A stretch of 64,000 nt of DNA from NCBI RefSeq assembly GCF_000421845.1, contig NZ_ATXU01000001.1, positions 1 through 64,000 of the forward strand. Reading direction: 5' to 3'. The notes under the pieces are model-generated. The model saw only the letters and a program-made list of their open reading frames with translations. It searched no databases and was not told the origin of the DNA. This document shows positions 3,467-18,898 of this stretch, one piece after another (the first letter of the stretch is position 1; each line of letters opens with the position of its first letter). The translations under genes were made by a program, and so were the position numbers. The DNA is from Leucobacter chironomi DSM 19883. GTDB lineage: Bacteria > Actinomycetota > Actinomycetes > Actinomycetales > Microbacteriaceae.

Positions 3467-5064
3467 CGCTCGTCTCCGCGGTCGGCGGGCGAGGATCCGG
3501 GTCCGCCCGAGCGCTCAACGGTGTCCTCGCCCACCACCGGATCGCCGGCGGTGACGTCCGGGATGTCGAGCGTGCCGGTCTCGATGTGCGCGGCGGCGCG
3601 CTCCGCGTCGCCGTCGCGGTAGCGGCCGGGGCCGACGAGGCGGATCAGGCCGGTCTTGAGCTGCTCGCCGAGCACCGAGTTCTTGCGGCCGGTGAACCAC
3701 CACCACACGAGCACCACGAGCGTCCATCCGAGGAAGACGAAGATGGTAATGGGCCGCAGATCCTTGATGATCCAGAGGCAGCCGATGATCGAGAGGATCG
3801 GGATCACCGGATAGAGCGGCACGCGGAACTTGCGCTCCAGGTCGGGCTCGCGCTTGCGCAGCACCATCACCGCGACCGACACGACGGTGAACGCGGCGAG
3901 CGTGCCGATCGAGGTCATCTCGGCGAGGAAGTTGATGGGCAGCACGCCCGCGAGGATCGCGACGATCACCGAGACGATGACGGTGTTGGCCACCGGGGTC
4001 ATGGTGCGCGGGTTGACCTTCTGGAAGATCTTGGGCGCCATGCCGTCGCGCGACATCGCGAACAGGATGCGGGTCTGGCCATAGAGCACGACGAGGGTGA
4101 CGCTGAAGATCGAGATCACGGCGCCGGCCGCGACGAGCGTGCCGGGCCAGGACGCCCCGATGATGTTCTCGAGGATCTGCGAGAGACCGGCCGACTGCCC
4201 GTCGAACTCGGCGGTGGGCTGGGCGCCCAGCGCGGCGACGGCGACGAGCACGTACATGGTGGTCACCACGACGAGCGCGGCGACGAGAGCGATCGGCAGG
4301 TTGCGGCGGGGGTTCTTCGCCTCGTCGCCGGCGGTGGCGACGGCGTCGAGACCCACGAAGGAGAAGAAGATGAGGCCCGCGCCCGTCATCACGCCGCTGA
4401 ATCCGAAGGGCGCGAAGTCGGCGAAGTTGTTGGTGTTCCAGCCGGTGATGCCCACCGCGACGAAGAACAGCAGCACGGCGATCTTGATGAGCACCATGAT
4501 GGTGTTCGCCACGACCGAGTGCGAGGTGCCGCGCACGAGCAGGAACGCGCACATCGCGATCAGGATCACGGCCGGCAGGTTGATGATGCCGCCCTCTTCG
4601 GGGGCCGCCGACAGCGCGACCGGCAGCTGGAAGCCGAAGAGGTTGCCCATGAGCTGGTTCACGTACTGCGACCACCCCACGGCCACCGCCGCCGTCGACA
4701 CCCCGTACTCGAGCAGCAGACAGGCGGCCACGCCCATCGCGGGCAGCTCGCCGAGGGTGCTGTAGGCGTAGGAGTAGGAGGATCCCGACACCGGCACGCT
4801 GCTCGCCAGCTCGGCGTAGCAGAGCGCCGACAGCCCGGCGACGGTGGCCGCGATGATGAACGACCAGATCACGGCCGGGCCGGCGATCGGCACCGCTTCG
4901 GAGAGGATGAAGAAGATACCGGTGCCGATCGTGCCGCCGACGCCGATCAGCGTGAGCTGGAAGAGGCCGATGCTGCGCTTCAGCGGGCTGCCGCTCTCAC
5001 CGCCATCGCGAGGGACGGGCTTCACGCGGAAGAGCTGCTGGCGCAGCGTCTGCGGTGTGGACAT
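3463..5064 (-). CDS. APC-family amino acid permease
   Basis: A 533-residue polytopic membrane protein with about 12 transmembrane helices. The N-terminus has the APC signature (LKRSIGLFQLTLIGVGGTIGTGIFF, about residues 25-50, read in parts) followed by a substrate-binding unwound helix GTIGTG. A long hydrophilic C-terminal tail (about residues 470-533) is acidic and Pro-rich. The ATG at 5062-5064 is preceded by GGAGA at good spacing; a start five codons upstream lacks this. It lies 68 bp downstream of the decarboxylase gene on the same strand and overlaps the USP gene, suggesting a decarboxylase-permease-USP transcription unit. Pairing with a basic amino-acid decarboxylase suggests an amino acid/amine substrate, but the sequence does not fix it. 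Confidence 0.85.
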   Translation of the reverse strand: MSTPQTLRQQLFRVKPVPRDGGESGSPLKRSIGLFQLTLIGVGGTIGTGIFFILSEAVPIAGPAVIWSFIIAATVAGLSALCYAELASSVPVSGSSYSYAYSTLGELPAMGVAACLLLEYGVSTAAVAVGWSQYVNQLMGNLFGFQLPVALSAAPEEGGIINLPAVILIAMCAFLLVRGTSHSVVANTIMVLIKIAVLLFFVAVGITGWNTNNFADFAPFGFSGVMTGAGLIFFSFVGLDAVATAGDEAKNPRRNLPIALVAALVVVTTMYVLVAVAALGAQPTAEFDGQSAGLSQILENIIGASWPGTLVAAGAVISIFSVTLVVLYGQTRILFAMSRDGMAPKIFQKVNPRTMTPVANTVIVSVIVAILAGVLPINFLAEMTSIGTLAAFTVVSVAVMVLRKREPDLERKFRVPLYPVIPILSIIGCLWIIKDLRPITIFVFLGWTLVVLVWWWFTGRKNSVLGEQLKTGLIRLVGPGRYRDGDAERAAAHIETGTLDIPDVTAGDPVVGEDTVERSGGPGSSPADRGDER

Positions 5065-5132
5065 GGGTTCTCCAGACATCGTCGTCGTACGTGTTCGGTT
5101 CGGGCCGTTCGGCCGGTGGGCTGGGATTGAGT

Positions 5133-6731
5133 CTAAGCGGTGCGGGTGACGCGGAAGGAGGTCACCGCGGGGTTGACCGCGCCGCGCACATAGCCTGTCG
5201 GCGACGCCGCGACGGCCTGCAGGAAGGCGACGGTCTCGGCCGTGATCTCCTCGCCGGGGATGAGGTTCGGGATCCCGGGCGGGTAGGCGGCGAGAGTGTC
5301 GGCGGAGACCCGTCCGACCGCCTCGGCGGCCGGCACGAGCTCGGTCTGCGCGAAGAAGCCATCGCGGGGCGGCATGCGGAGCGCACCGGGCGCGGGCAGT
5401 GCGGGGAAGGACCCGGCGGCGGCGTGCGCCTCGCGCTCGACGGCGGCCGCGTCGGAGTCGACCGCCGCGACGAGAGCGCGGTGCACGAGCTCGTAGTCGG
5501 GCGTCTTGCCCGCGCCGATGACGGCGACCAGCGAGGTGGCGGTGGACATCTCGAAGTGGATGCCGTCGACGTCGATGAGCCGCTGCCGCAGCCAGTGGCC
5601 GCTCACCCCGGTCGCCGAGACGTCGATGGGCACGCGCAGCAGGTCGGTGTCCACGATGTCGTCGAAGCGGTCGAAGCCGTCGCTGACGACACCGAATCGG
5701 GGGTCGTCGCGCAGCATCTCGCGGAAGCGGCGGGCTCCGGCGATGGAGTGCCCGATCTCGGCCTCGCCGGTCATGAGCGAGTGGCGGGCGATGTCGAGGG
5801 AGGCTCGCAGGATCGCGCTCGTCGAGGTGGAAGCCGTCATCGTGAAGGCGCGCTCGATGAGCGGTTCGAGGCGGTCGGCGAAGAGGCCGTGGCCGAGGTG
5901 CAGCATGGCCGACTGCGTGAGGGAGCCGGCGAGCTTGTGCGTGCTCGACACGACGAGGTCGGCGCCGAGGCGGGCGGGCGACTCGGGCAGCTCGGGGTGG
6001 AAGCCGAAGTGCGGGCCCCAGGCGCCGTCGACGATGAGCGGTGCGCCATGTGCGTGGGCGACGTCGCTGAGGCCGCGCACGTCGGCGACGGAGCCGAAGT
6101 AGCTGGGCGAGATGATGTAGACGGCCGAAGCGGGACGCCCCTCGCGCGCGGCGGTCGTGAGCGCCTCGTCGAGCGCCGCCGGGGAGACGCCGTGCGACAT
6201 GCCGTGGAAGCCGTCGACGGAGGGGAAGACGAAGCCCGGGATCAGTCCGGCTGCGAGCACGCCGTCGCTGAAGCTGGAGTGCGCGCTGCGCTGCGAGACG
6301 ATGTGCTCGCCGAGACCGCGGGCGGCGAGCGCTGCGGTGCGGTTGGCCTGCGAGGCGCCGTTGGTGAGGAACCACGTGCGGCGCGCGCCCCAGGCCTCGG
6401 CGGCGAGCGCGAGCGCCCGGTCGAGCGGCGAGTCCGCGCCGAGGTCGACGTCGTCGATGAGCATGGGGATGTCGAGCTGCAGGGTGCGCTCGCCGAGGTA
6501 GTCGGCGAGGCGCGCTCCGAGCCCGCGGTCGCTGCCGCCGTGGCCGGGCACCATGAGCTGCACGGGGCCGCGCGCGACGTAGCGGTCGAGCGCGTCCGCG
6601 TAGGGGGTCTCGGCGTGCCGGCGCAGCACGGACTGCCGCTCGGCGGCGGGCGAGCGGGTCTCGGCGGGCGCTGACGAGCTCGTGGAGTGGTCGAGCGCGG
6701 GGAGGCCGACCGGGTCGGTGACGTGGAGCAT
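5133..6731 (-). CDS. Orn/Lys/Arg decarboxylase-type PLP enzyme
   Basis: A 532-residue fold-type-I PLP protein of the Orn/Lys/Arg decarboxylase major-domain family. Visible motifs: MVPGHGGS near residue 60, TNGASQANRTA (PLP phosphate region), VDGAWGPHFGF (PLP-binding Asp) and SSTHKLAG containing the Schiff-base lysine. It lacks the N-terminal wing domain of the long enterobacterial inducible enzymes and resembles the short Gram-positive type. It would decarboxylate a basic amino acid to a polyamine (cadaverine, agmatine or putrescine) in the cytoplasm; the substrate is not resolved. The next gene downstream is an APC permease, and the divergent gene is a LysR regulator sharing a 123-bp control region. 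The ATG directly follows GGAGGG, too close for a normal ribosome site; CACGAT six bases upstream could make it leaderless. Confidence 0.82.
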   Translation of the reverse strand: MLHVTDPVGLPALDHSTSSSAPAETRSPAAERQSVLRRHAETPYADALDRYVARGPVQLMVPGHGGSDRGLGARLADYLGERTLQLDIPMLIDDVDLGADSPLDRALALAAEAWGARRTWFLTNGASQANRTAALAARGLGEHIVSQRSAHSSFSDGVLAAGLIPGFVFPSVDGFHGMSHGVSPAALDEALTTAAREGRPASAVYIISPSYFGSVADVRGLSDVAHAHGAPLIVDGAWGPHFGFHPELPESPARLGADLVVSSTHKLAGSLTQSAMLHLGHGLFADRLEPLIERAFTMTASTSTSAILRASLDIARHSLMTGEAEIGHSIAGARRFREMLRDDPRFGVVSDGFDRFDDIVDTDLLRVPIDVSATGVSGHWLRQRLIDVDGIHFEMSTATSLVAVIGAGKTPDYELVHRALVAAVDSDAAAVEREAHAAAGSFPALPAPGALRMPPRDGFFAQTELVPAAEAVGRVSADTLAAYPPGIPNLIPGEEITAETVAFLQAVAASPTGYVRGAVNPAVTSFRVTRTA

Positions 6732-6785
6732 CCCTCCATCGTGGGGGTGCGGATCACGATCGTGAACCCCCGTATCGTCTCGGAA

Positions 6786-6806
6786 GTCACATATGCTGTA
6801 TGTGAC
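6786..6806. promoter_or_regulatory. Perfect 8-bp-arm dyad, probable LysR operator
   Basis: GTCACATA (6786-6793), 5-nt spacer TGCTG, then TATGTGAC (6799-6806). The arms are exact reverse complements. A further half-site GTATGTG follows at 6816-6822. It lies between the divergent decarboxylase and LysR genes, and spacing and symmetry fit a LysR-type recognition site with autoregulation. Confidence 0.7.
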
Positions 6807-6854
6807 AAACGTGCCGTATGTGCCTGAGTGTCAGATATGGGATAGTGGGATGCC

Positions 6855-7775
6855 ATGATCGACCTGCGTCAGCTCCAAGCCCTGCGGGCGGTGCACGCCG
6901 AGGGGTCCGTCACCGGGGCCGCCCGCCGCCTCGGCTGGAGCCAGCCCACGGTCGACTACCACCTCAAGAACCTCGACGGCCAGGTCGGCGCCGCGGTGAT
7001 CAACCGCTCCTCGCGCGGCAGCTCGCTCACGCCCGTGGGCGTGCTGCTGCTCGATCGCGGCGAGGAGATCCTCACCCTCACCGATCGCGCCCTGCGCGAC
7101 GCGCGCGAGCTCACCCAGATGGGGCGCGTGCGGTTGCGCTTCGGGACCTTCCCCACAGCCGCGGCGAAGCTGCTGCCTTCGATCGTCGCGCAGGTGACCG
7201 AGTTGGGGATCGAGCTGGACGCCGTGCTCGAAGAGGTGCCGCAGCTCGTCGAGCACGTCAACCGGAGACAGCTCGACGCCGCGATCGTGTACTCGGTGCC
7301 CGATCACGAGCTGGCGTTCCGCTCCGACATCGTCACCACCGAGGTGCTGCGCGATCCGCTCATGCTCGCCCTGCCGGAGGGGCACCCGCTCGCAGCGCGC
7401 GCCGCCATCGACCGCGCAGCCCTGCTCACGCTCAGCGGCGAGCGCTGGCTCTTCGCCGCCGCCTGGGACGACCCCATGGACGCGATGGTGATCGACGCTT
7501 TCGCGCAGGCCGGGCACACGCTCGACGTGGCGATCCGCACCGACGACTTCCAGGTCATGCTCGGCATGGTCGCCGCCCGCATGGCCGTCAGCTTCCTGCC
7601 CCGCCTCGCGAGCACCCGCGAGCACCCCGGCGTCGTGCTGCGCCCCATCGACGAGCCGTCGTTCGTGCGCTCGCTGCTCATCGCGGCGCCCGCGGACGGC
7701 GCCGGCAAGCAGCCCTCCGCGGCGGTGCGTCAGCTCGCCGAGGCGATCCGCGGCGCCGTCTCCGCGCTCGACTGA
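6855..7775 (+). CDS. LysR-family transcriptional regulator
   Basis: A 306-residue regulator. Residues 1-60 form the LysR winged HTH (MIDLRQLQALRAVHAEGSV, AARRLGWSQPTVDYHLKNL); residues ~90-300 form the periplasmic-binding-like effector domain starting at RLRFGTFPTAAAKLLP. HTH recognition helix residues QPTVDYHL differ from the common QPAVSxQI, as in a subset of actinobacterial members. It is transcribed away from the decarboxylase-permease-USP operon and is its likely activator; the perfect dyad 49-69 nt upstream is the likely site. The effector may be the decarboxylase substrate amino acid (inference). Confidence 0.9.
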   Translation: MIDLRQLQALRAVHAEGSVTGAARRLGWSQPTVDYHLKNLDGQVGAAVINRSSRGSSLTPVGVLLLDRGEEILTLTDRALRDARELTQMGRVRLRFGTFPTAAAKLLPSIVAQVTELGIELDAVLEEVPQLVEHVNRRQLDAAIVYSVPDHELAFRSDIVTTEVLRDPLMLALPEGHPLAARAAIDRAALLTLSGERWLFAAAWDDPMDAMVIDAFAQAGHTLDVAIRTDDFQVMLGMVAARMAVSFLPRLASTREHPGVVLRPIDEPSFVRSLLIAAPADGAGKQPSAAVRQLAEAIRGAVSALD

Positions 7776-7805
7776 GCGCCGCCGGGAGCCGAGATCGCGC
7801 GGTCG

Positions 7806-8237
7806 TCAGGCCTCGAGATCGCTCGGCCCGAACGCGAGCGGCAGCACCTCGTCGATCGTGCGCACTCCCGCAACGGTCTCGATCAAGAGACCGGGGGCGG
7901 CGTGCTCGGCCAGCAGCTGCCGACAGCGGCCGCAGGGCATGATCGTCGCCCCGTCGCCGTCGACGCACACGAACGCCGCGAGTCGCCCGCCCCCGCTCAT
8001 GTGCAGCGCCGAGACGAGCGCGCACTCCGCGCACAGCGTCAGCCCGTACGAGGCGTTCTCCACATTGCATCCCGCGACAATCCGGCCGTCGTCGACGAGC
8101 GCCGCAGCGCCTACGCGGTAGCGGGAGTAGGGGGCGTAGGCGCGATCCCGGGCCGCGTTCGCCGCGGCGCGCAGGGCGGGCCAGTCCACTCCCCCGTCGG
8201 GTTCCCGGCCCCCGGGCTCCTCCGGCGGGATGCTCAC
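7806..8237 (-). CDS. cdd: Cytidine deaminase
   Basis: A 143-residue homotetrameric-type cytidine deaminase: zinc-dependent deamination of (deoxy)cytidine to (deoxy)uridine in pyrimidine salvage. Visible features: YAPYSRYRVGAA near residue 34, the substrate loop CNVENASYG (57-65), zinc-ligand/catalytic C69-A-E71, and the second zinc motif PCGRC near residue 105. The GTG at 8235-8237 overlaps the stop of ppx by 4 nt (GTGA), implying coupling. The length agrees with family members; an ATG in the same frame far upstream would place most of the protein inside ppx and is rejected. Confidence 0.92.
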   Translation of the reverse strand: MSIPPEEPGGREPDGGVDWPALRAAANAARDRAYAPYSRYRVGAAALVDDGRIVAGCNVENASYGLTLCAECALVSALHMSGGGRLAAFVCVDGDGATIMPCGRCRQLLAEHAAPGLLIETVAGVRTIDEVLPLAFGPSDLEA

Positions 8238-9205
8238 CCGAGCTCCGGGGCGGGCTCCGAGACCGGCTCCGCGCCGCGGCCGTCGAGCGCGTCGATGTAG
8301 CGCAGCACGATGCCCTCGCGCAGCGCCCACGGCGAGATGGTGAGGGTGTCGACCTCGAACACCTTCATCGCGGTGCGCAGCACCACCGCACCGGCCATGA
8401 TCTGGTAGCCGCGCTCCGGGGTGATGCCCGGCAGGTACTCGCGCACCGATCCCGGCATGTCGCGCAGCGTGGGCTCCCACTCGCGCAGGCCCACGTAGTG
8501 CAGCTGCGCGAGATCGCCCGTGATGGGGTCTGCGGGCCCGCCCACGAGCCGGGCGAGCGAGCGGATCGTCTTCGAGGTGCCCACCACCCGCTTGGGCCTC
8601 GGGCGATCCGCGAAGACCTCATCGCGCACGCGCGTGAACTCGGCGCGCGCGTGCGCCCGCAGCCGCGAGACCGCCTCGCGCGTCGGCGGATCCTCGGGCA
8701 GGAAGTTGATGGTGGATCGGCCCGCGCCGAGCGGCAGCGACACCTGCACGTCGGGGTACTCGTCGGCTCCCTGGGCGATCTCGAACGAGCCGCCGCCGAT
8801 GTCGAAGAGCAGGATCTCCCCCGCCGACCAGCCGAGCCAGCGGCGCACCGCGAGCATCGTGATCCGCGCCTCGTCCTCGCCGGAGAGCACGCGCAGCACG
8901 ACGCCCGTCTCCCGGGTGATGCGGGCGAGCACCTCTTCGCCGTTGGCGGCCTCGCGGATCGCGCTGGTCGCGGTGGCGATCATGTCGTCGACGCCGATCT
9001 CGCGCACGGTGTCGGCGGCCTCGCGGATCGCATCGACGATGCGGCGCACGCCCTCCTCCACGATCGCGCCGTCGGCGTCGAGGTAGCGCATGAGCCGCAG
9101 CACCGAGCGCTGGGAGTGGTACGGGGCGGGGCTCGCACCCGGGTGGGCGTCGACCACCAGCAGATGGACGGTGTTGGATCCGACGTCGATCACTCCGAGG
9201 CGCAT
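8234..9205 (-). CDS. ppx: Ppx/GppA-family phosphatase (exopolyphosphatase / pppGpp hydrolase)
   Basis: A 323-residue ASKHA-fold enzyme. Motifs: phosphate-1 loop DVGSNTVHLLVVDA at the N-terminus, ATSAIREAANG, the catalytic-Glu segment LSGEDEARI, and the second phosphate loop FDIGGGSFEIA. It carries only the two core subdomains, as in the short actinobacterial Ppx/GppA proteins, and lacks the HD and C-terminal extensions of long Ppx. It hydrolyses terminal phosphates of polyphosphate and/or pppGpp in the cytoplasm. A TAGAAT box six bases before the ATG, and no Shine-Dalgarno, point to a leaderless mRNA. cdd is coupled downstream. Confidence 0.9.
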   Translation of the reverse strand: MRLGVIDVGSNTVHLLVVDAHPGASPAPYHSQRSVLRLMRYLDADGAIVEEGVRRIVDAIREAADTVREIGVDDMIATATSAIREAANGEEVLARITRETGVVLRVLSGEDEARITMLAVRRWLGWSAGEILLFDIGGGSFEIAQGADEYPDVQVSLPLGAGRSTINFLPEDPPTREAVSRLRAHARAEFTRVRDEVFADRPRPKRVVGTSKTIRSLARLVGGPADPITGDLAQLHYVGLREWEPTLRDMPGSVREYLPGITPERGYQIMAGAVVLRTAMKVFEVDTLTISPWALREGIVLRYIDALDGRGAEPVSEPAPELG

Positions 9206-9211
9206 GGGGAG

Positions 9212-9217
9212 ATTCTA
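9212..9217 (-). promoter_or_regulatory. -10 box (TAGAAT) of a leaderless ppx promoter
   Basis: Read on the minus strand, TAGAAT is separated from the ppx ATG by six bases (CTCCCC), which would put the transcription start at or next to the A of ATG. No clear -35. Confidence 0.6.
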
Positions 9218-9317
9218 GTGGGCGCGCCGCCCCGCGCGGCGGCCGGGTGCGGCGGCGCGGGAGGGCGGTGGGGCCCCAGCGGAAGGCGCCGGGGTCGCAC
9301 CGGGGCGGGCGGATCCT

Positions 9318-9351
9318 CTACCCCGTGGGTGAAAACTCCTACCGCGAGGGT
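9318..9351. promoter_or_regulatory. Two 13-bp direct repeats, 21 bp apart
   Basis: CTACCCCGTGGGT at 9318-9330 and CTACCGCGAGGGT at 9339-9351 match at 11 of 13 positions with a 21-bp period (two helical turns). They lie ~100-130 bp upstream of the polysaccharide operon, ahead of a possible -10 TAGGAT at 9404-9409. This fits tandem binding of a dimeric regulator such as an OmpR/SARP-type protein; the regulator is unknown. Confidence 0.45.
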
Positions 9352-9451
9352 CGTGATGCCGGGCAGGCGCGTCATTTGGTCGGATCTCACAAGCCGACAC
9401 CCGTAGGATTGCGGGGAGTTGCGTTTCTTCAGGGGGAAGGGCTGTCCGACG

Positions 9452-11749
9452 ATGAGCACATCCGCGCCGATTTCCGGTTCACACACCCGCGCCGCGGGGC
9501 ACTCGCGCCTGCGGCGTGCGCCCGCTGCGATCCTCTCGGGAGTCCTCGTGCTCGCGAGCCTCGGGGCCGGAGCCGCCCCGGCCCTCGCCCACGACGGCGC
9601 GGGCGCGAAGTCGCAGGTGTCGCCGGATCAGCCGAGCAATCCCGCCGACACCACGGCCCCGGCGCAGGCCGACGACACCGCCGACCGCGACAGCTCTGAC
9701 GAGCTATCCGGAGCGGACGCCGCGACCGGCCCCACCAGCGCGCAGTCCCGCTCGGAGCGGGCCGAACTCGCGAGCGGCGGCACGGTGTGGCTTCCCTTCT
9801 TCGTGCCGGACGGCACGACACCGCAGGAGTTCACCGCCCGCCTGTCGCTGCTCGCGGGCGACGGCGCCTCAGAGGTGCAGGTGAGCAGCGAACGTCGGCA
9901 CCTCGGCACCGTCACGCCCGCCGATGGCGAGATCAGCCTCGCGCTCAGCGAGGAGGACGTGGTCGACGGCCGCGTCAACCTCGCGTTCTCGCTGCCCTGG
10001 GACACCGGCCGCGTCTGCTGGGTCGCGAGCGACACCGCGCAGCGCGAGCAGAGCACTCGCGTCGCCATCGCCGACGCGGCGATCGACTCCGCGGGCGAGG
10101 CGACCCCGCCCGAGACCGTCGGCGCCTTCCTCGCGCCGTGGGTGGAGCAGGTCGAGGTGGTCACCGGCGGCGATCCGCAGCTGCTCGAAGCGGGCCTGAG
10201 CGCCGTTGCCGCGGCGACGCACCGCCTCGGCAGCGAGTCCTCGGTGTCGCTCGACGCTCCGGCCGCGGAGACGCCCGACCCCGTGACCCGGCGCGTCATC
10301 GCGTTCGAGGCCGGCAGCGGCCCCGCCGTCACCGGTATCGACGCCGACGAGCAGGGCGTGCCCCGCCTCGTCGTCTCAGGCGCCCCCGAGAAGCTCGCCG
10401 CCGCCGCGGCCGCGCTCGGCTCGGCCGGGCTCCCCCTCGCCTCCGCCGCGGAGACCGAGGGACTCGCCGCCGCAGCCGCCACGCAGCCGGACACCGCCCG
10501 CTCGCTCACGCTCGAAGACCTCGGCACCGCCAGCGTCTCGCTGCGCGGCTACGGCGTCACCGACGGCTTCATCGACGTGCCGCAGGACGCATTCGGCGGG
10601 CCGGTCGACGGCTACACCCTGCGTCTCACCGGCGCGGTCAGCACCGTCGACTCCGCCACTGTCGCCTCCGCGGAGGTGCTCTGGAACGACGTGCTCGTCG
10701 ACACGCTGCCGATCAGCGGCGACAAGCCGCGCATCGACCGCGAGATCGAGATCCCCGCGACGAGCGTGCGCGCCTCGAACGGCCTCGTAGTGCGCCTCAC
10801 GGCCGTCGCCGCCGGCGGCGCCTGCATCGACGAGTCGCTGCTGCCCCAGGTGCGCCTCGACCTCGACACCCGTGCCAGCACGGTCACCGCGCATCGCGGC
10901 CAGGCCGCACGACCCGGCTTCGACCGCTTCCCGCAGGCGCTCGGCGGCGCGCTCACCGTCGCGACCGGCTCCGACACCCCGGGCACCACCGAGGTGCAGG
11001 CCGCCGGGTCGGTCGTCGCAGCGCTGCAGCGCGTGTCGAGCCGGCAGCTCGACATCTCCGTCGATTCGGCGCAGCAGCTGATCGACTCGGCGATGCCCGG
11101 CCTGCTCGTGGGAGCGACCCCCGACCAGGCCAACGCGCTGCGCACCCCGCTGCGCCTCGACCGTTTCCGCACTCTCGCCCCCTCGGGCAGCACCGAGCTG
11201 ACCGTGGCAGTCGATCAGCCCTACGCCGCCCTCATGGCCTTCGAGTCGGGCGACCGCGACCTGCTGGTCGTCGGCGGCTGGGCGCCCGAGGGCGAAGCCC
11301 CCGACGCGCTGATCGCGAGCGTCGCCGGCGACCTCGATGGCACCGACTGGTACTCGCTCTCCGGTGTCCTGCGCTTCCAGGCCGAGAGCGACGAGGAGCC
11401 CGAGCTGCTCGACATCAACGCCGTGGTGCCGCAGCAGGAGTACCGCGACGACTACACCTGGCTCGCCTGGGTCGCGATCGGCGGCCTCGTGCTGCTGCTC
11501 GCGATCGTGGGGATCGCCGCCGCTGCGCGACGTCGTCGCCTGGTGGCGACGCGGCAGGTCGAGGCCGAGGCGGCTGAGGCCGCCGCGACCGACACCGCCG
11601 CAGCCGACGAGACCGCCTCGGCGGTCGGGGCCGAGCCGGTCTCCGGCGCAGATCCGCTGCCCGCGGATGCGGCCCCGAGCACCGCTCCGGCTCCCGACGC
11701 TGCGGCCGAGCCCGGATCGGACGCCGAGCGCCGCAGCGACGGCTCGTGA
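9452..11749 (+). CDS. BcsB-like exported membrane protein of a polysaccharide synthase
   Basis: A 765-residue protein with an N-terminal export signal (RRAPAAILSGVLVLASLGAG, residues ~22-45), a large extracytoplasmic region, one C-terminal transmembrane helix (about residues 670-692, WLAWVAIGGLVLLLAIVGIA), an Arg-rich stop-transfer, and a low-complexity Ala/Glu/Pro cytoplasmic tail. That topology, and the TVWLPFFVP... repeats of beta-rich modules, match the cellulose synthase regulatory subunit BcsB family (PF03170-like), the partner that guides the nascent glycan. It is the first gene of a coupled three-gene operon; the third gene is the family-2 synthase. The ATG at 9452 is chosen over TTG 9419; the purine tract AGGGGGAAGG is 11 nt upstream. 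Distant homology, so the family call is good but not certain. Confidence 0.72.
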   Translation: MSTSAPISGSHTRAAGHSRLRRAPAAILSGVLVLASLGAGAAPALAHDGAGAKSQVSPDQPSNPADTTAPAQADDTADRDSSDELSGADAATGPTSAQSRSERAELASGGTVWLPFFVPDGTTPQEFTARLSLLAGDGASEVQVSSERRHLGTVTPADGEISLALSEEDVVDGRVNLAFSLPWDTGRVCWVASDTAQREQSTRVAIADAAIDSAGEATPPETVGAFLAPWVEQVEVVTGGDPQLLEAGLSAVAAATHRLGSESSVSLDAPAAETPDPVTRRVIAFEAGSGPAVTGIDADEQGVPRLVVSGAPEKLAAAAAALGSAGLPLASAAETEGLAAAAATQPDTARSLTLEDLGTASVSLRGYGVTDGFIDVPQDAFGGPVDGYTLRLTGAVSTVDSATVASAEVLWNDVLVDTLPISGDKPRIDREIEIPATSVRASNGLVVRLTAVAAGGACIDESLLPQVRLDLDTRASTVTAHRGQAARPGFDRFPQALGGALTVATGSDTPGTTEVQAAGSVVAALQRVSSRQLDISVDSAQQLIDSAMPGLLVGATPDQANALRTPLRLDRFRTLAPSGSTELTVAVDQPYAALMAFESGDRDLLVVGGWAPEGEAPDALIASVAGDLDGTDWYSLSGVLRFQAESDEEPELLDINAVVPQQEYRDDYTWLAWVAIGGLVLLLAIVGIAAAARRRRLVATRQVEAEAAEAAATDTAAADETASAVGAEPVSGADPLPADAAPSTAPAPDAAAEPGSDAERRSDGS

Positions 11750-13413
11750 GCATCGCCGAGCCCGCGCCGGGTCGCCTCCGCGCGGCCTGGGCGGCGCTCG
11801 GCGCGCCCGCAACCGGGCGCCGCGTGCCCGGCACCCTCATCGTCGCAGCCATCGCGCTGATCGCCGGCACCATCGCCGCGTTCTGGAGCATCGGCACCGA
11901 GATGCAGTTCGCGTACGCCGACGCGCAGAGCCACCTCACCATCGCCCGACGCATCTTCGACAGCATGGCCCCCGGCTTCACCCAGCTCGGCACCGTGTGG
12001 CTGCCGCTGCCGAACCTGCTGCTGATGCCGTTCGTGGCCGTCGACTGGCTGTGGGCGACGGGCTGGGCGGCGGCGCTGCTCGGAATCGTCTGTCTCGTCG
12101 CGACGGCCTCGGCGAGCTACCGGATCGCGGCGCGCATCGGCCTGGGCCGCACCGCCCGCCTCGTGCTGGTCGGGCTCATCGTCACCAATCCGAGCCTGCT
12201 CTACGTGCACACGACCGCGCTCACCGAACCCGTGCTCATCGCGTTCCTCACCGCCGCCGTGGCGGGGCTCGCCTCGTGGGCGCTCTCGCCCCGCGAGCTC
12301 AGCGCGGGCGAGATGATGGTGTTCAGCGGCGCGCCCGCCGCGGGCGCCGTGCTTTCCCGCTACGAGGGCTGGGCACTCGTGGCGAGCGGCACGCTGTTCG
12401 TGATCATCGTCGCCTGGCGGCGCAAGCGCTCGCTGAAGCACGTCGTGAAACTGGCGTCGGCTTTCGCGCTGTGGCCCGCGCTCGGCGTGCTGTGGTGGGT
12501 CTCCTACAACTTCGCCGTCTACCAGAACCCGCTCGAGTTCTTGAACGGCCCCTACTCCGCCGCCGCGCTGCAGGCGCCGGTCTCCGAATCCGGGTTCCTC
12601 GCCTACAAGGGCTCGGTCGGCCTCACGCTCTGGGCCTACCACTGGGCCATCATCGGCACCGTCGGCGCCGTCACCCTCGCGGTCGCCGCCCTCGGACTTG
12701 TCGCGCTCTGCGCCCGGTTCCGGCTCGAGACGCGCGCGCTCATCGTCTGGCTGCTGGCCACCGGCTGGGCGTTCTCGCTGCTCAGCCTCTATCTCGGCCA
12801 GACCCACATGAACAACATGCACACGATGCCCACGAACTGGTGGAACAACCGGTACGCGCTCGTGTCGCTGACCTGGTTGGCGATGCTCTGCGCGGTGTGG
12901 ATCGACACTTGTCTGCGGTCGCGGCGGGTGCGCGTGCTCGGGATCACGGCGGCCGTCGCCACGATCGTCGCATTCGCGGGTCAGCTGGCCTGGTCGTTCG
13001 CCGACCTGCCGGGCCGCAGCGCCGTGCTCGCCGAGGGCGAGGGGTACCTGCAGATCAAACGCGGCAACGGCACCGACGCGGGGGCGCGCTACCTCGGAGA
13101 CCACTACGACGGCGGCGGGATCCTCATGGACGAGTCCGCGGCGGGCAACGCGGTGCTGCCGCAGATCGGCGTGCCGCTGCGCGAGTACTTCAACCGCTCC
13201 ACGGGTGAGTTCTTCGACGAGGCGCTGCGCGATCCCGCCGGCCACGCCCGCTGGATCTTCTACACGGTGGCCGACGCCCCGTCCCTGTCGAGCGCGGCGG
13301 TCGCCGACCAGGTGTACGCGACGCTCCTCGAGAACCCCGCAGTGCTCGCGCAGTACGAGCTCGTGTTCTCCGAGGGCGACATCCGCATCCTCCGACGATT
13401 GGACGGCTCATGA
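11746..13413 (+). CDS. PMT/ArnT-like membrane glycosyltransferase (GT-C fold)
   Basis: A 555-residue protein with about 11 transmembrane helices. After the first helix comes FAYADAQSHLTIARRIFDS, an acidic first external loop of the kind that holds the catalytic Asp of polyprenyl-phosphate-sugar-dependent GT-C enzymes, then GTVWLPLPNLLLMPF. The last ~110 residues form an external domain. Such enzymes transfer a sugar from a lipid-phosphate carrier to protein or glycan outside the membrane. The GTG start overlaps the BcsB-like stop by 4 nt and its own stop overlaps the synthase start by 4 nt, so all three are made together. The DPA lipid-sugar pathway encoded 2-6 kb away could provide its donor (inference). 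Confidence 0.72.
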   Translation: MSIAEPAPGRLRAAWAALGAPATGRRVPGTLIVAAIALIAGTIAAFWSIGTEMQFAYADAQSHLTIARRIFDSMAPGFTQLGTVWLPLPNLLLMPFVAVDWLWATGWAAALLGIVCLVATASASYRIAARIGLGRTARLVLVGLIVTNPSLLYVHTTALTEPVLIAFLTAAVAGLASWALSPRELSAGEMMVFSGAPAAGAVLSRYEGWALVASGTLFVIIVAWRRKRSLKHVVKLASAFALWPALGVLWWVSYNFAVYQNPLEFLNGPYSAAALQAPVSESGFLAYKGSVGLTLWAYHWAIIGTVGAVTLAVAALGLVALCARFRLETRALIVWLLATGWAFSLLSLYLGQTHMNNMHTMPTNWWNNRYALVSLTWLAMLCAVWIDTCLRSRRVRVLGITAAVATIVAFAGQLAWSFADLPGRSAVLAEGEGYLQIKRGNGTDAGARYLGDHYDGGGILMDESAAGNAVLPQIGVPLREYFNRSTGEFFDEALRDPAGHARWIFYTVADAPSLSSAAVADQVYATLLENPAVLAQYELVFSEGDIRILRRLDGS

Positions 13414-15368
13414 TCGGTTTGCCCGGCCGTGACCGGCGCCGGATCGGCGAGATCCTCCTCGACCGCGGACTCATCACCGAGTCGCAGCTCGACGACGCGC
13501 TCGCGGCGCAGCGCGCGGGCGGAGGCCCGCTGGGGCGCCACCTCATCCTGAACGGCGCCGTGCAGCGCCTGGAGATGTATCGCGCGCTCGCCGAGCAGTG
13601 GCGCGCCCCGTTCGTCGACCTCGTCGAGCTCGACGAGCAGGGCGAGGTCGACGCCGAGCACATCCTGGCGGAACCCGCGGAGACGTGGATCGAGCGCGGC
13701 TGGCTGCCGCTCGGCGTCGAGCGCCCGTCGCACGCGCCGTCCGCGGTCACCGTCGCCACGACCATCCCGCTCTCCGAAGAGGCGGCCGCCGAGATCGTCG
13801 CCCGATACGGGGTCGACGAGCTGCGGCTCGTCACGACCACCGACTGGGATCTCGTGCGCGTGGTGCAGTCGATCTGCCGCGCGGCGCTCGTCTTCGGCGC
13901 CGCCGAGTCGCTGGCGAGCACCGACAACTCCGCGTCGGCGAAGGACGGGCTCAACCGCTGGCAGCGCGCTCTCCCCGTGATCGCGGTCGCGATCGTCGTC
14001 ATCGGCGCGTTGCTGGATCCGCTCATCACCGCGATCACGGTGCTCGCCTTCGCCAACGCGATGTTCCTCATCAACGTCGGATTCAAGGTGCTCGCCGGTG
14101 TGCGCGGCAGCATCAGGCGCGTCTGGCGGCGCCGCCTCGCCGCGGAGGTGCACCGACAGCGCGAGGCCCGGGGCCTGCCCGAGCCCGAGTCCGCGATCCC
14201 CGACGACGACCTGCCGATCTACACGATCCTCGTGCCCGCGTACCGCGAGGCCAACATCATCACGAAGCTGGTCGCGAATCTCGGCGCGCTCGACTACCCC
14301 AAGTCGAAGCTCGACGTGCTGCTGCTGCTCGAAGAGGACGACGACGAGACGATCGCCGCGGTGAAGGCGATGCGCCCGCCCGAGTACGTGCGCATGCTCA
14401 TCGTGCCGCCTGGCGGCCCCCAGACGAAGCCGCGCGCCTGCAACTACGGGCTGGCCTTCGCACGGGGCGAGTTCGTCGTCATCTACGATGCCGAGGACCG
14501 GCCGCAGCCGCGGCAGCTGCGGCAGGTCGTGGAGCGGTTCCGCTCCGAGCAGCACTCGGAGACCCGCGATCCGCGCCCGCTCATCTGCGTGCAGGCGGCG
14601 CTCAACTACTTCAACGCCGACTACAACGTGCTCACGCGCCTCTTCGCGGTGGAGTACGCGCACTGGTTCGACTCGATGCTGCCCGGCATGGACGACTGGC
14701 ACGTGCCGATCCCCCTCGGCGGCACCTCGAACCACTTCGTCACCGAGCAGTTGCGCAACCTCGGCGCCTGGGATCCGTACAACGTCACCGAGGACGCCGA
14801 CCTCGGCATGCGCATCGCCGTGCACGGCGGACGCGTCGGCGTCGTCGACTCCGTCACCTGGGAGGAGGCGTGCGCCGAGGTGCCCGCCTGGGTGAAGCAG
14901 CGCACCCGTTGGATCAAGGGGTACATGATGACCGGCGCGGTCAACGCCCGGCACCCGGTCGCGTGGTTGAAGCAGAACGGGCTGCCCGGCTTCATCACGC
15001 TCACCGCGCTCATCATCGGCACGCCGCTCGCGTTCCTCGCCTACCCGCTCGTGCTCGGCTTCACCATCATCACCTACGTGGGGGTGCACGTCATCGGTCT
15101 CGACCTGCCCGACTGGCTCGTGATCGGCGGCACCATCAATATGCTGGCCTCGAACGCGCTGATGATCATGTTCGCGGGTGCGGCGGCCTGGCGCCGCTAC
15201 AACTGGCGCATCGCCGTGTTCGCGCTGCTCAATCCGCTCTACTGGATCCTGCACTCCGTCGCGGCGTGGCGAGCGGCCTGGCAGATGTACTTCAGCCCGC
15301 ACCGCTGGGAGAAGACCCCGCACGGGCTGACCGAGGAGTACGAGGACTCCTCGGTGGTCGCCGAGTAG
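13410..15368 (+). CDS. Family-2 processive glycosyltransferase with N-terminal MshEN domain
   Basis: A 652-residue cellulose-synthase-like enzyme. Residues ~9-160 form a GspE_N/MshEN domain: R11-I-G13, L16-L17, G20-L21-I22, L27, L31, Q34 fit the first c-di-GMP-binding motif of MshEN domains, and L41-G42, L45-I46, G49, L60, Q63 fit the second copy (its Arg is Pro40). Two membrane helices follow (~185-225), then a cytoplasmic GT2 domain with Y359-D-A-E-D363 (UDP/metal), T460-E-D462 (catalytic base) and Q497-R-T-R-W501 (processive-synthase motif), then about four C-terminal helices. It polymerises a nucleotide sugar and exports the chain. In BcsA the c-di-GMP sensor is a C-terminal PilZ; here an N-terminal MshEN seems to replace it. 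The polymer is unknown. Confidence 0.85.
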   Translation: MIGLPGRDRRRIGEILLDRGLITESQLDDALAAQRAGGGPLGRHLILNGAVQRLEMYRALAEQWRAPFVDLVELDEQGEVDAEHILAEPAETWIERGWLPLGVERPSHAPSAVTVATTIPLSEEAAAEIVARYGVDELRLVTTTDWDLVRVVQSICRAALVFGAAESLASTDNSASAKDGLNRWQRALPVIAVAIVVIGALLDPLITAITVLAFANAMFLINVGFKVLAGVRGSIRRVWRRRLAAEVHRQREARGLPEPESAIPDDDLPIYTILVPAYREANIITKLVANLGALDYPKSKLDVLLLLEEDDDETIAAVKAMRPPEYVRMLIVPPGGPQTKPRACNYGLAFARGEFVVIYDAEDRPQPRQLRQVVERFRSEQHSETRDPRPLICVQAALNYFNADYNVLTRLFAVEYAHWFDSMLPGMDDWHVPIPLGGTSNHFVTEQLRNLGAWDPYNVTEDADLGMRIAVHGGRVGVVDSVTWEEACAEVPAWVKQRTRWIKGYMMTGAVNARHPVAWLKQNGLPGFITLTALIIGTPLAFLAYPLVLGFTIITYVGVHVIGLDLPDWLVIGGTINMLASNALMIMFAGAAAWRRYNWRIAVFALLNPLYWILHSVAAWRAAWQMYFSPHRWEKTPHGLTEEYEDSSVVAE

Positions 15369-15385
15369 TCGGGTCCGGGGAGCGG

Positions 15386-15415
15386 AACCTGAACCTGAAC
15401 CTGAACCTGAACCTG
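15386..15415. repeat. Hexanucleotide tandem repeat (AACCTG)5
   Basis: Five perfect copies of AACCTG between the synthase stop and the convergent dprE2 gene. A simple-sequence tract prone to slippage; no function evident. Confidence 0.9.
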
Positions 15416-15450
15416 ATCCGGATACCGCGGAGCGGCTGAGCGCGGATCGG

Positions 15451-17534: not shown

Positions 17535-17936
17535 CTACCCCTCCCTCTCGACGAAAGTGTAGCGGCGATCCAGCTGGTACTTCGCCGCGTATCCGATCCC
17601 GAGCCCGATGACCGCGCCTGTGTAGCGGGCCGCCTCGGTGCCGAAGATCCAGTCGAAGCCGAACTCGAAGCCCCAGAAGATGACGGTCGTCACGACGCTG
17701 AACAGCGTGTACATGACGACGGTGCGCAGATTGCCGGACAGGCTCTTGGAGCGGTAGCGGAAGATGTACCGCCGATCCAGCACGTACTTGACGGAGAGCC
17801 CCGCGATGGTGCCGGCGAGCACGCCCGCCGCGACCGCCCACGTTCCGTCGAGCATCCGCACGACGGCGGCCTGCGCGAGCAGGTTCGTGAGCGTGGCGAT
17901 CGCCGCGAAGAGCAGGTACAACAGCGCGATGCGCAC
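17535..17936 (-). CDS. GtrA-like four-helix membrane protein
   Basis: A 133-residue protein with four transmembrane segments (starting LLYLLFAAIATLTNLLAQ) and the GtrA-family endings KYVLDRRYIF and KYQLDRRYTF, i.e. two copies of the K-Y-x-L-D-R-R-Y motif. GtrA proteins act with lipid-linked sugars; the mycobacterial neighbour of dprE1 (Rv3789) is in this family and has been linked to DPA translocation or to recruiting arabinosyltransferases. The GTG at 17934-17936 has GGAGA just upstream; longer frames would run into the divergent ubiA promoter. First gene of the gtrA-dprE1-dprE2 operon. Confidence 0.85.
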   Translation of the reverse strand: MRIALLYLLFAAIATLTNLLAQAAVVRMLDGTWAVAAGVLAGTIAGLSVKYVLDRRYIFRYRSKSLSGNLRTVVMYTLFSVVTTVIFWGFEFGFDWIFGTEAARYTGAVIGLGIGYAAKYQLDRRYTFVEREG

Positions 17937-18007
17937 ATCGTCTCCGTTCTGGGACTCGGTGCCCGCCTGACCCCGATTCGGCCGCTCGACCCCCGAGAAT
18001 AGAGTGT

Positions 18008-18898
18008 ATGCGCTCACTCTTCCAAGCACTGCGCCCTCGGCAGTGGGTCAAGAATCTGCTCGTGTTCGCGGTGCCCCTCGCGGCGGGCCGACTCTTCGAA
18101 CCGCAGGTGCTGCTGCAGTCGATCGCGGGCTTCGCGGTGTTCTGCGCCGCATCGTCCACGGTGTACCTCGTGAACGACCTCATGGACCGGGAGTCGGACC
18201 GCATCCACCCGTCGAAGCGGTACCGCCCGATCGCGAGCGGGCGCGTATCGCCCCGCACGGCCACCGTCACCGCGGGAGTGCTCGGCGTCGGAGCCGTCGT
18301 CACGCCCTTCGCCACGGGGGCCGTGGGGCTCGGAGCCGTCGTCATCGCCTACCTCGCGCTGCAGGCGCTCTACGTCACCTGGGCGAAGCACCGCAAGGTG
18401 GTCGACATGCTCTCCGTGGCGACGGGCTTCTGCCTCCGCGGCATCGCGGGCGCCGCCGCGACCGGTATCCCCGTGAGCGCCTGGTTCATGCTCGTCATCA
18501 TGGCGGGCTCGCTCTTCATGGTCGCCGGCAAGCGATACTCGGAGCTGCTGGCGGCTCAGCACGCCCCCACGGCGTACACGCGTTCGACGCTCGCGCAGTA
18601 CTCGGTGACGTTCCTGCAGTTCGTCTGGGCGATGTCGGGCACGATGCTCGTGCTCGGCTACTCCCTCTGGGCGTTCCAGATCGCGGGCTTCAACCAGGTC
18701 TTCACGGTCTCCTCGGTCGTGCCGTTCCTCGCGATCGTGCTCTACTACGCCTCCGACATCGACAAGGGCCGCGCCGAGGGCCCCGAGATGGTGCTCTTCC
18801 GCAACCGCAGCGTGCAGTTCGCGGCGGTGGCCTGGTTCGGGCTCTTCGCGGCAGCGGTGCTCGTGCCGTCCGACGGCATGACCCTCTTCGGGGCGTAG
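18008..18898 (+). CDS. ubiA: UbiA-type decaprenyl-phosphate phosphoribosyltransferase (DPPR synthase)
   Basis: A 296-residue UbiA-superfamily membrane protein with about nine helices. Mg-diphosphate motif one is NDLMDRESDRIHPSKR (N-D-x-x-D-x-x-x-D, about residues 57-72); the second is YYASDIDKGRAEGPEM (about 247-262). RPRQWVKNLLVFAVP at the N-terminus is typical of DPPR synthases (Rv3806c type). It transfers phosphoribose from PRPP to decaprenyl phosphate, the first committed step to DPA. It is divergent from gtrA-dprE1-dprE2 with a 71-bp shared region; a DprE3-type phosphatase is not seen nearby. GAGAAT seven bases before the ATG may be the -10 of a leaderless mRNA. Confidence 0.88.
   Translation: MRSLFQALRPRQWVKNLLVFAVPLAAGRLFEPQVLLQSIAGFAVFCAASSTVYLVNDLMDRESDRIHPSKRYRPIASGRVSPRTATVTAGVLGVGAVVTPFATGAVGLGAVVIAYLALQALYVTWAKHRKVVDMLSVATGFCLRGIAGAAATGIPVSAWFMLVIMAGSLFMVAGKRYSELLAAQHAPTAYTRSTLAQYSVTFLQFVWAMSGTMLVLGYSLWAFQIAGFNQVFTVSSVVPFLAIVLYYASDIDKGRAEGPEMVLFRNRSVQFAAVAWFGLFAAAVLVPSDGMTLFGA

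Follow-up and report, generated by a model that had tools for sequence, protein, structure and literature searches.

The window analysed here is a 64,000-nucleotide stretch of the Leucobacter chironomi DSM 19883 genome (contig NZ_ATXU01000001.1), and its plus-strand open reading frame at 13410-15368 appears to encode the catalytic subunit of a polysaccharide synthase resembling BcsA/BcsB, with an N-terminal MshEN sensor of cyclic di-GMP (c-di-GMP) in place of the C-terminal PilZ domain. We put the probability of this reading at about 0.72. The encoded enzyme probably synthesises a polysaccharide for export, with c-di-GMP as the controlling signal. The gene begins with ATG, encodes 652 residues and has the appearance of coding sequence, with G or C at 0.96 of third positions; antisense reading frames opposite it (e.g., 13260-15323 on the minus strand) were taken as high-GC shadows. 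A preliminary description of this DNA had proposed a c-di-GMP-gated, PilZ-free polysaccharide synthase, a proposal that is supported within the limits of a sequence analysis; the BcsB-like partner, the GT-C type glycosyltransferase and the arabinose-donor genes nearby had been overlooked.

The putative sensor lies at the front of the protein, where a two-copy MshEN motif with Pro at the Arg position of the second copy had been described. NCBIfam model NF053729 ("c-di-GMP_motif, MshE-related") aligns over its full length with residues 11-63 (58.3 bits, cut-off 38, E 4.8e-16), and this is the only MshEN motif above cut-off in the whole genome. The relaxed 24-residue motif of Wang et al. 2016 has 11 fixed positions per copy and a 5-residue spacer (PMC5013675; this and the other papers cited are used in excerpt). 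All 11 positions agree in copy 1 at residues 11-34 (R11, I12, G13, L16, L17, G20, L21, I22, L27, L31 and Q34) and all 11 in copy 2 at residues 40-63 (P40, L41, G42, L45, I46, G49, A50, V51, M56, L60 and Q63). Arg thus occupies the first position in the first copy only. The published first position may be R, K, P or N (PMC5013675), and because the relaxed motif admits Pro, P40 is no bar to membership among the MshEN receptors. The tandem motif with its spacer occurs once in the six frames of the window (126,400 residues), at this gene, and 20,000 shuffles of the protein yielded it 0 times. The same-genus genome G218 (G and L numbers are our handles for genomes and loci) retains 22 of 22 fixed positions, with a ratio of nonsynonymous to synonymous substitution (dN/dS) of 0.19 over residues 1-66 and 0.11 over the glycosyltransferase domain. 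When a profile of alignment A2 was compared with the PDB, its front part matched MshE, PilF and PilB chains and its glycosyltransferase part matched BcsA chains; the c-di-GMP motif model matches 43 of the 45 rows of that alignment at E <= 0.01.

Behind the motif comes a family 2 glycosyltransferase (GT2) domain, which Pfam PF13641 matches at residues 271-504 (91.3 bits, cut-off 27). The DxD-like, TED and QRTRW motifs reported in the preliminary description are all present, the first as DAED; TED and QRTRW occur in all 12 rows of alignment A1 and DAED in 11, and hydropathy places hydrophobic helices on both sides of the domain. The protein thus has the DxD-like, TED and QxxRW motifs and the flanking membrane helices of a processive, BcsA-like GT2, and its GT2, joined to an intact tandem MshEN motif, is by sequence of the polysaccharide-synthase type. 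The NCBIfam CelA model gives 29.6 against a cut-off of 699.1. An alternative is a non-processive enzyme that transfers sugars one at a time onto a lipid carrier or a cell-wall polymer. The adjoining GT-C and polyprenyl-phosphate sugar genes would suit such a lipid-linked route, but the QRTRW and TED motifs, the helices flanking the domain, the BcsA profile match and the BcsB-like partner speak against it, and we regard it as improbable.

The synthase gene is the last of three plus-strand genes in series, each overlapping the next by 4 bases (Table 1). The first encodes a BcsB-like protein, for which the earliest possible start is TTG 9419. BcsB proteins carry a hydrophobic segment at the N-terminus and a single helix at the C-terminus. 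The 765-residue form of the L. chironomi protein has a hydrophobic segment at residues 27-45, a probable signal peptide, and a single C-terminal transmembrane helix at 674-692 by hydropathy; it scores 32.1 bits with Pfam PF03170 (cut-off 21), and the BcsB model matches 14 of 18 rows at E <= 0.1. The second product is a polytopic membrane protein that we take to be a GT-C glycosyltransferase from its hydropathy and from motifs. D59 and H63 are invariant in all 16 rows, among which PMT matches 3 and PMT_2 matches 3 at E <= 0.01. Carriage of the operon on plasmids was considered and rejected: the single weak GT-C match, in a Nonomuraea record of 11.8 Mb, looks chromosomal by the size of that record.

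Table 1. Features of the synthase operon and the neighbouring genes, in window coordinates.
Feature	Position	Strand	Evidence
BcsB-like exported subunit, 765 aa from ATG 9452	9452..11749	+	Pfam PF03170 32.1 bits; hydropathy
GT-C type polytopic membrane glycosyltransferase, 555 aa	11746..13413	+	PMT marginal; hydropathy; 4-base overlaps both sides
MshEN-GT2 synthase, 652 aa	13410..15368	+	Open reading frame call; Pfam and NCBIfam matches
MshEN_N, two 24-residue motifs, residues 11-34 and 40-63	13440..13598	+	NF053729 58.3 bits; 22/22 relaxed positions
MshEN_C-like stretch, residues 67-156	13608..13877	+	Pfam MshEN 19.6 bits (cut-off 23.1); A2 profile vs PDB MshE/PilF/PilB
GT2 catalytic domain, residues 271-504	14220..14921	+	PF13641 91.3 bits; motifs; profile match to PDB BcsA chains
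DAED, residues 360-363	14487-14498	+	GT2 motif
TED, residues 460-462	14787-14795	+	GT2 motif
QRTRW, residues 497-501	14898-14912	+	GT2 motif
DprE2-like short-chain dehydrogenase, 249 aa	15486..16235	-	NF053786 139.5 bits (cut-off 250); PDB DprE2 E 1.3e-24
DprE1-like oxidase, 432 aa	16232..17530	-	NF053785 324.6 bits (equivalog cut-off 500); PDB DprE1 E 7e-69
GtrA-family membrane protein	17535..18029	-	NF037976 165.7 bits (cut-off 50)
UbiA-type decaprenyl-phosphate phosphoribosyltransferase, 296 aa	18008..18898	+	NF008978 313.1 bits (cut-off 207); PDB 8j8j E 2.6e-66

The genome (2.96 Mb in 27 contigs) has two EAL domains and seven GGDEF domains, six of the latter with an intact GGDEF motif, so the cell can probably make c-di-GMP. 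A search of the genome for PilZ gave no match, where the same search gave matches in 5 of 14 control genomes; the C-terminal PilZ domain of BcsA cellulose synthase has no counterpart here.

Related gene sets occur in other actinobacteria; examples are G218 and operons of Arthrobacter and Paenarthrobacter, and a gene of this type is also found on a Pseudoclavibacter caeni contig. A survey of 199 Microbacteriaceae genomes, the L. chironomi genome included, in which some of the candidates were scored per genome, found a GT2 match at E <= 1e-20 in 44 and the closer type of GT2 (47-64% identity, or the window itself) in 10. We then compared 103 rows, comprising 20 regions from the family, the best 80 of 587 confirmed matches from a collection of named genomes, G218, G247 and the window. 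A GT-C relative (>100 bits) lies near the GT2 in 28 rows, or 26 distinct loci, since L045/L066 and L046/L067 are each the same genome twice; in these counts some rows are short contigs and several are close kin. A BcsB-like gene is present at 24 of the 26 operon loci versus 5 of the 75 other GT2 rows, all five from Chloroflexota; at the two operon loci that lack it, L070 and L075, the contig reaches just 2.1 and 0.6 kb upstream of the GT-C gene, and L047, truncated at a contig end, is counted among the 75. A GGDEF match lies within 11 kb at 16 of the 26 operon loci versus 5 of 75, a comparison biased toward operon rows by queries taken from operon loci. Pfam confirms GGDEF domains in seven proteins from L040, L041, L043 (two), L044, L045 and L048, and also at L062 and L072; EAL domains occur near related operons as well. 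A class-wide search with the GT-C protein matched 9 of 394 genomes, including its own, each of the nine having a GT2 relative in the vicinity. In the five weakest of these the GT2 match begins at residue 200 or later, so the MshEN domain may be missing there.

In a quick tree of 88 GT2 proteins (SH-aLRT, i.e., Shimodaira-Hasegawa-like approximate likelihood ratio test, support and no bootstrap), 22 rows form one group (SH-aLRT 96), and in every one of them a GT-C relative lies near the GT2; within this group L047 shows the end of the GT-C gene only and L070 has no BcsB-like gene. Not included in this tree are eight rows whose ends are doubtful or absent, L087 (internal stop), the duplicate rows L045 and L046, as well as L056, L058 and L143. 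The Acidobacteria row L075 adjoins the operon group (SH-aLRT 97), and L067, L069, L070 and L075 have long branches and an uncertain placement. The window falls in a group of nine (SH-aLRT 98) with Rathayibacter iranicus and Subtercola. Gemmatimonadota rows that have all three genes fall apart from the main operon group, so the gene set is either old or has moved. In a second Microbacteriaceae group of GT2 proteins, at about 40% identity and operon-free, the motifs are worn in all 9 rows examined, with 7 to 9 of the 11 positions per copy.

Several further observations concern these loci. Two genomes, G083 (L043, L048) and G146 (L049, L050), carry the three-gene operon in two copies each. The Gemmatimonadota versions at L089 and L117 are preceded by a gene for a PEP-CTERM protein. 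A pectate-lyase/epimerase-like beta-helix protein is found near the operon at L040 and L060 (Pfam) and at L041, L042 and L044 (similarity to L040), and is a candidate polymer-acting enzyme; its gene had no match in the L. chironomi genome in a search made without a positive control. At L143 (G218, about 4963-13464) the GT2 gene reads as two overlapping pieces and the matches to the BcsB-like and GtrA proteins are likewise split in two, which may reflect sequencing error or decay. In the second GT2 group (L051-L059), a gene that by its start resembles ThrS lies nearby at 7 of 9 loci, and a protein of about 394 residues is encoded nearby at 7 of 9 loci; the L051 copy of the latter has no Pfam match.

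The genes beyond the synthase look like a pathway for activated D-arabinose. The decaprenylphosphoryl-arabinose pathway would be represented by a UbiA-type phosphoribosyltransferase that scores above its model cut-off, and by DprE1-like and DprE2-like genes that overlap by 4 bases; for the DprE2-like protein the general short-chain dehydrogenase model outscores NF053786 (194.8, cut-off 267, versus 139.5). Between the DprE1-like and UbiA-type genes lies a GtrA-family gene whose start codon is uncertain, the start given in Table 1 overlapping the UbiA gene, and whose product we presume to be a flippase. A perfect tandem repeat of the 6-base unit GAACCT (5.3 copies) occupies positions 15385-15416, in the gap where the GT2 and DprE2-like genes converge.

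Few genomes of the family carry DprE1 (8 of 199 at E <= 1e-40). Five of the eight are among the ten genomes with the closer GT2, the other five of those ten having no DprE1, and outside that set it occurs in G066 and G163 (>530 bits) and G064 (207 bits); the association has a Fisher p of 5e-6 with kinship ignored. Among 54 genomes of the same genus DprE1 is found in two, and the same two carry the operon, in matching chromosomal positions. In a third, G247, the GT2 match is missing the first 160 residues, and the 18 kb examined there contain no operon gene. Across the 103 rows DprE1 lies near the GT2 at 7 of 26 operon loci versus 0 of 75 others, and eight of the nine rows in the window's tree group come from genomes with DprE1 above 490 bits, whether next to the operon or at another place, the exception being G083, which has none. 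Subtercola boreus carries both the operon and DprE1. In 33 further genomes DprE1 at E <= 1e-40 occurs in 5 of 16 with operon genes versus 5 of 17 without, and above 490 bits in 3 of 16 versus 0 of 17. We rejected the idea that the arabinose genes are common to the entire operon clade, DprE1 (E 1e-40) being absent from the five Arthrobacter/Paenarthrobacter genomes, Pseudoclavibacter caeni and others. The arabinose link is thus confined to the window's subclade.

From the domains, catalytic motifs, operon structure and conservation of the gene set shown above we infer the following mechanism. A GGDEF enzyme of the cell would make c-di-GMP, which would bind between the two MshEN motifs and open the GT2 active site; activation as the direction of the switch is carried over by analogy from NfrB and BcsA. 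The GT2 would then polymerise a nucleotide sugar and thread the chain through its own membrane helices, and the BcsB-like protein, anchored by one helix, would dock outside and guide the chain. The GT-C protein may add a side sugar outside the membrane from a polyprenyl-phosphate donor, perhaps D-arabinose. In its fullest form the model is of a c-di-GMP-switched exopolysaccharide that carries D-arabinofuranose, with the operon's GT-C or a partner transferring arabinose from decaprenylphosphoryl-arabinose to the polymer that the synthase makes. The gene neighbourhood and the precedent of TfpW (see below) suggest this donor, and we offer the idea as a tentative one that is more doubtful than likely.

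A number of observations weigh against the synthase model or its parts. The Arg of the second motif is Pro in the window and Leu in near relatives, and in five Arthrobacter/Paenarthrobacter rows R11 is replaced by Ser or Ala and Q34 by Ala. Pfam MshEN gives 19.6 bits on residues 67-156, below its cut-off of 23.1. GGDEF and EAL matches are absent out to about 10 kb in the window and 9 kb in G218. A profile of the BcsB-like protein found nothing significant in the PDB, where BcsB chains were best at E 0.19, and an NCBIfam scan of the protein gave no match, so the relation to BcsB is remote. The GT-C family is not recognised: PMT scores 18.9 bits, below the cut-off of 22.7, which makes the protein a marginal case of the PMT/ArnT type, and its profile retrieved no PDB chain up to E 10, so its donor sugar is not readable from a solved relative. 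The DprE1-like and DprE2-like proteins fall below their equivalog cut-offs, though their best PDB matches are DprE1 and DprE2. Moreover, G491L in the MshEN of NfrB abolishes or strongly lowers function, and most other single changes there were without effect in one study (PMC8669469, PMC8669472).

It is possible, then, that the MshEN domain has lost c-di-GMP binding and persists as a structural docking module, with activity set by transcription or partner proteins. Besides the Pro at position 40, this explanation could draw on the retention of the operon in relatives with degenerate motifs (the Arthrobacter rows and L067) and on Xanthomonas XpsE/GspE, in which binding was lost through changes of key residues (PMC5013675). 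We think it unlikely, however, given that 22 of 22 relaxed positions (Pro admitted) are retained and kept in G218 at a dN/dS of 0.19, and that GGDEF genes lie near related operons. The altered R11 and Q34 in the Arthrobacter/Paenarthrobacter rows indicate that c-di-GMP sensing may not hold throughout the operon clade; four of those five rows have GGDEF within 11 kb. Another scenario is that c-di-GMP binds and inhibits the synthase, or steers its location or partner contacts, instead of opening the active site. Related operons have both GGDEF and EAL domains nearby, which would fit such control, but c-di-GMP activates BcsA and, as proposed from genetics, NfrB (PMC8669469, PMC8669472), and we consider this the least probable of the alternatives.

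If the proposed reading of a synthase switched through MshEN is true, MshEN controls a cellulose-synthase-like pair of a Gram-positive lineage where cellulose synthase uses PilZ, and different sensors have been used to bring matrix synthesis under c-di-GMP control. If the arabinose idea is also true, a mycobacterial-type arabinan donor pathway has been placed under second-messenger-controlled matrix synthesis in some Microbacteriaceae, and there is a concrete reason for a few members of this family to keep a route to a D-arabinose donor that is known mainly from mycobacteria. Both ideas are testable within one small operon.

A non-exhaustive search of the openly accessible literature found no report of an actinobacterial MshEN-GT2/BcsB-like/GT-C operon or of the arabinose link. 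The fusion of GT2 and MshEN is already known from NfrB and Sfz2. We take IPR007831 to be the MshEN family, and on that assumption the stalk-forming Zetaproteobacteria have a similar gene pair. In their Sfz1/Sfz2 system a BcsB-like gene stands next to that of a GT2 whose N-terminal domain is of the EpsE-like/IPR007831 kind, and the authors likened the pair to the Xanthomonas xag genes (PMC8250860); a Xanthomonas row, L125, falls outside the operon group of our tree. Sfz1/Sfz2 differ in being proteobacterial and in that the excerpted text names no GT-C, and the authors read the front domain of Sfz2 as perhaps a translocation part and placed the c-di-GMP sites in the BcsB-like protein (PMC8250860).

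Glycosyltransferase fusions of MshEN were named by Wang et al. 2016 (PMC5013675). NfrB of Escherichia coli, like the L. chironomi protein, has GT2 and MshEN in one chain; it binds c-di-GMP with a dissociation constant of 1.0 uM and needs it for its product, and in Achromobacter nfrB is clustered with a BcsB homologue, as the synthase gene is here with a BcsB-like gene (PMC8669469, PMC8669472). One of the NfrB papers mentions rare Gram-positive homologues (Eggerthella) (PMC8669469/PMC8669472). NfrB differs in having a C-terminal MshEN, so that the domain order is reversed, and the outer-membrane protein NfrA as its partner; its equivalog model gives the L. chironomi protein 32.5 bits against a cut-off of 1170. 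For the arabinose idea the precedent is TfpW and the D-arabinofuranose genes of Pseudomonas, which pair a GT-C that uses this sugar with a gene set that includes ubiA (PMC11841053, PMC12369383). TfpW differs in acting on pilin, and its likeness to the operon GT-C lies in GT-C type and gene context. With the BcsA/BcsB cellulose synthase, the L. chironomi system shares the GT2 motifs and a BcsB-like partner and, presumably, control by c-di-GMP, but the sensor there is PilZ, for which this genome has no match, and here it would be MshEN.

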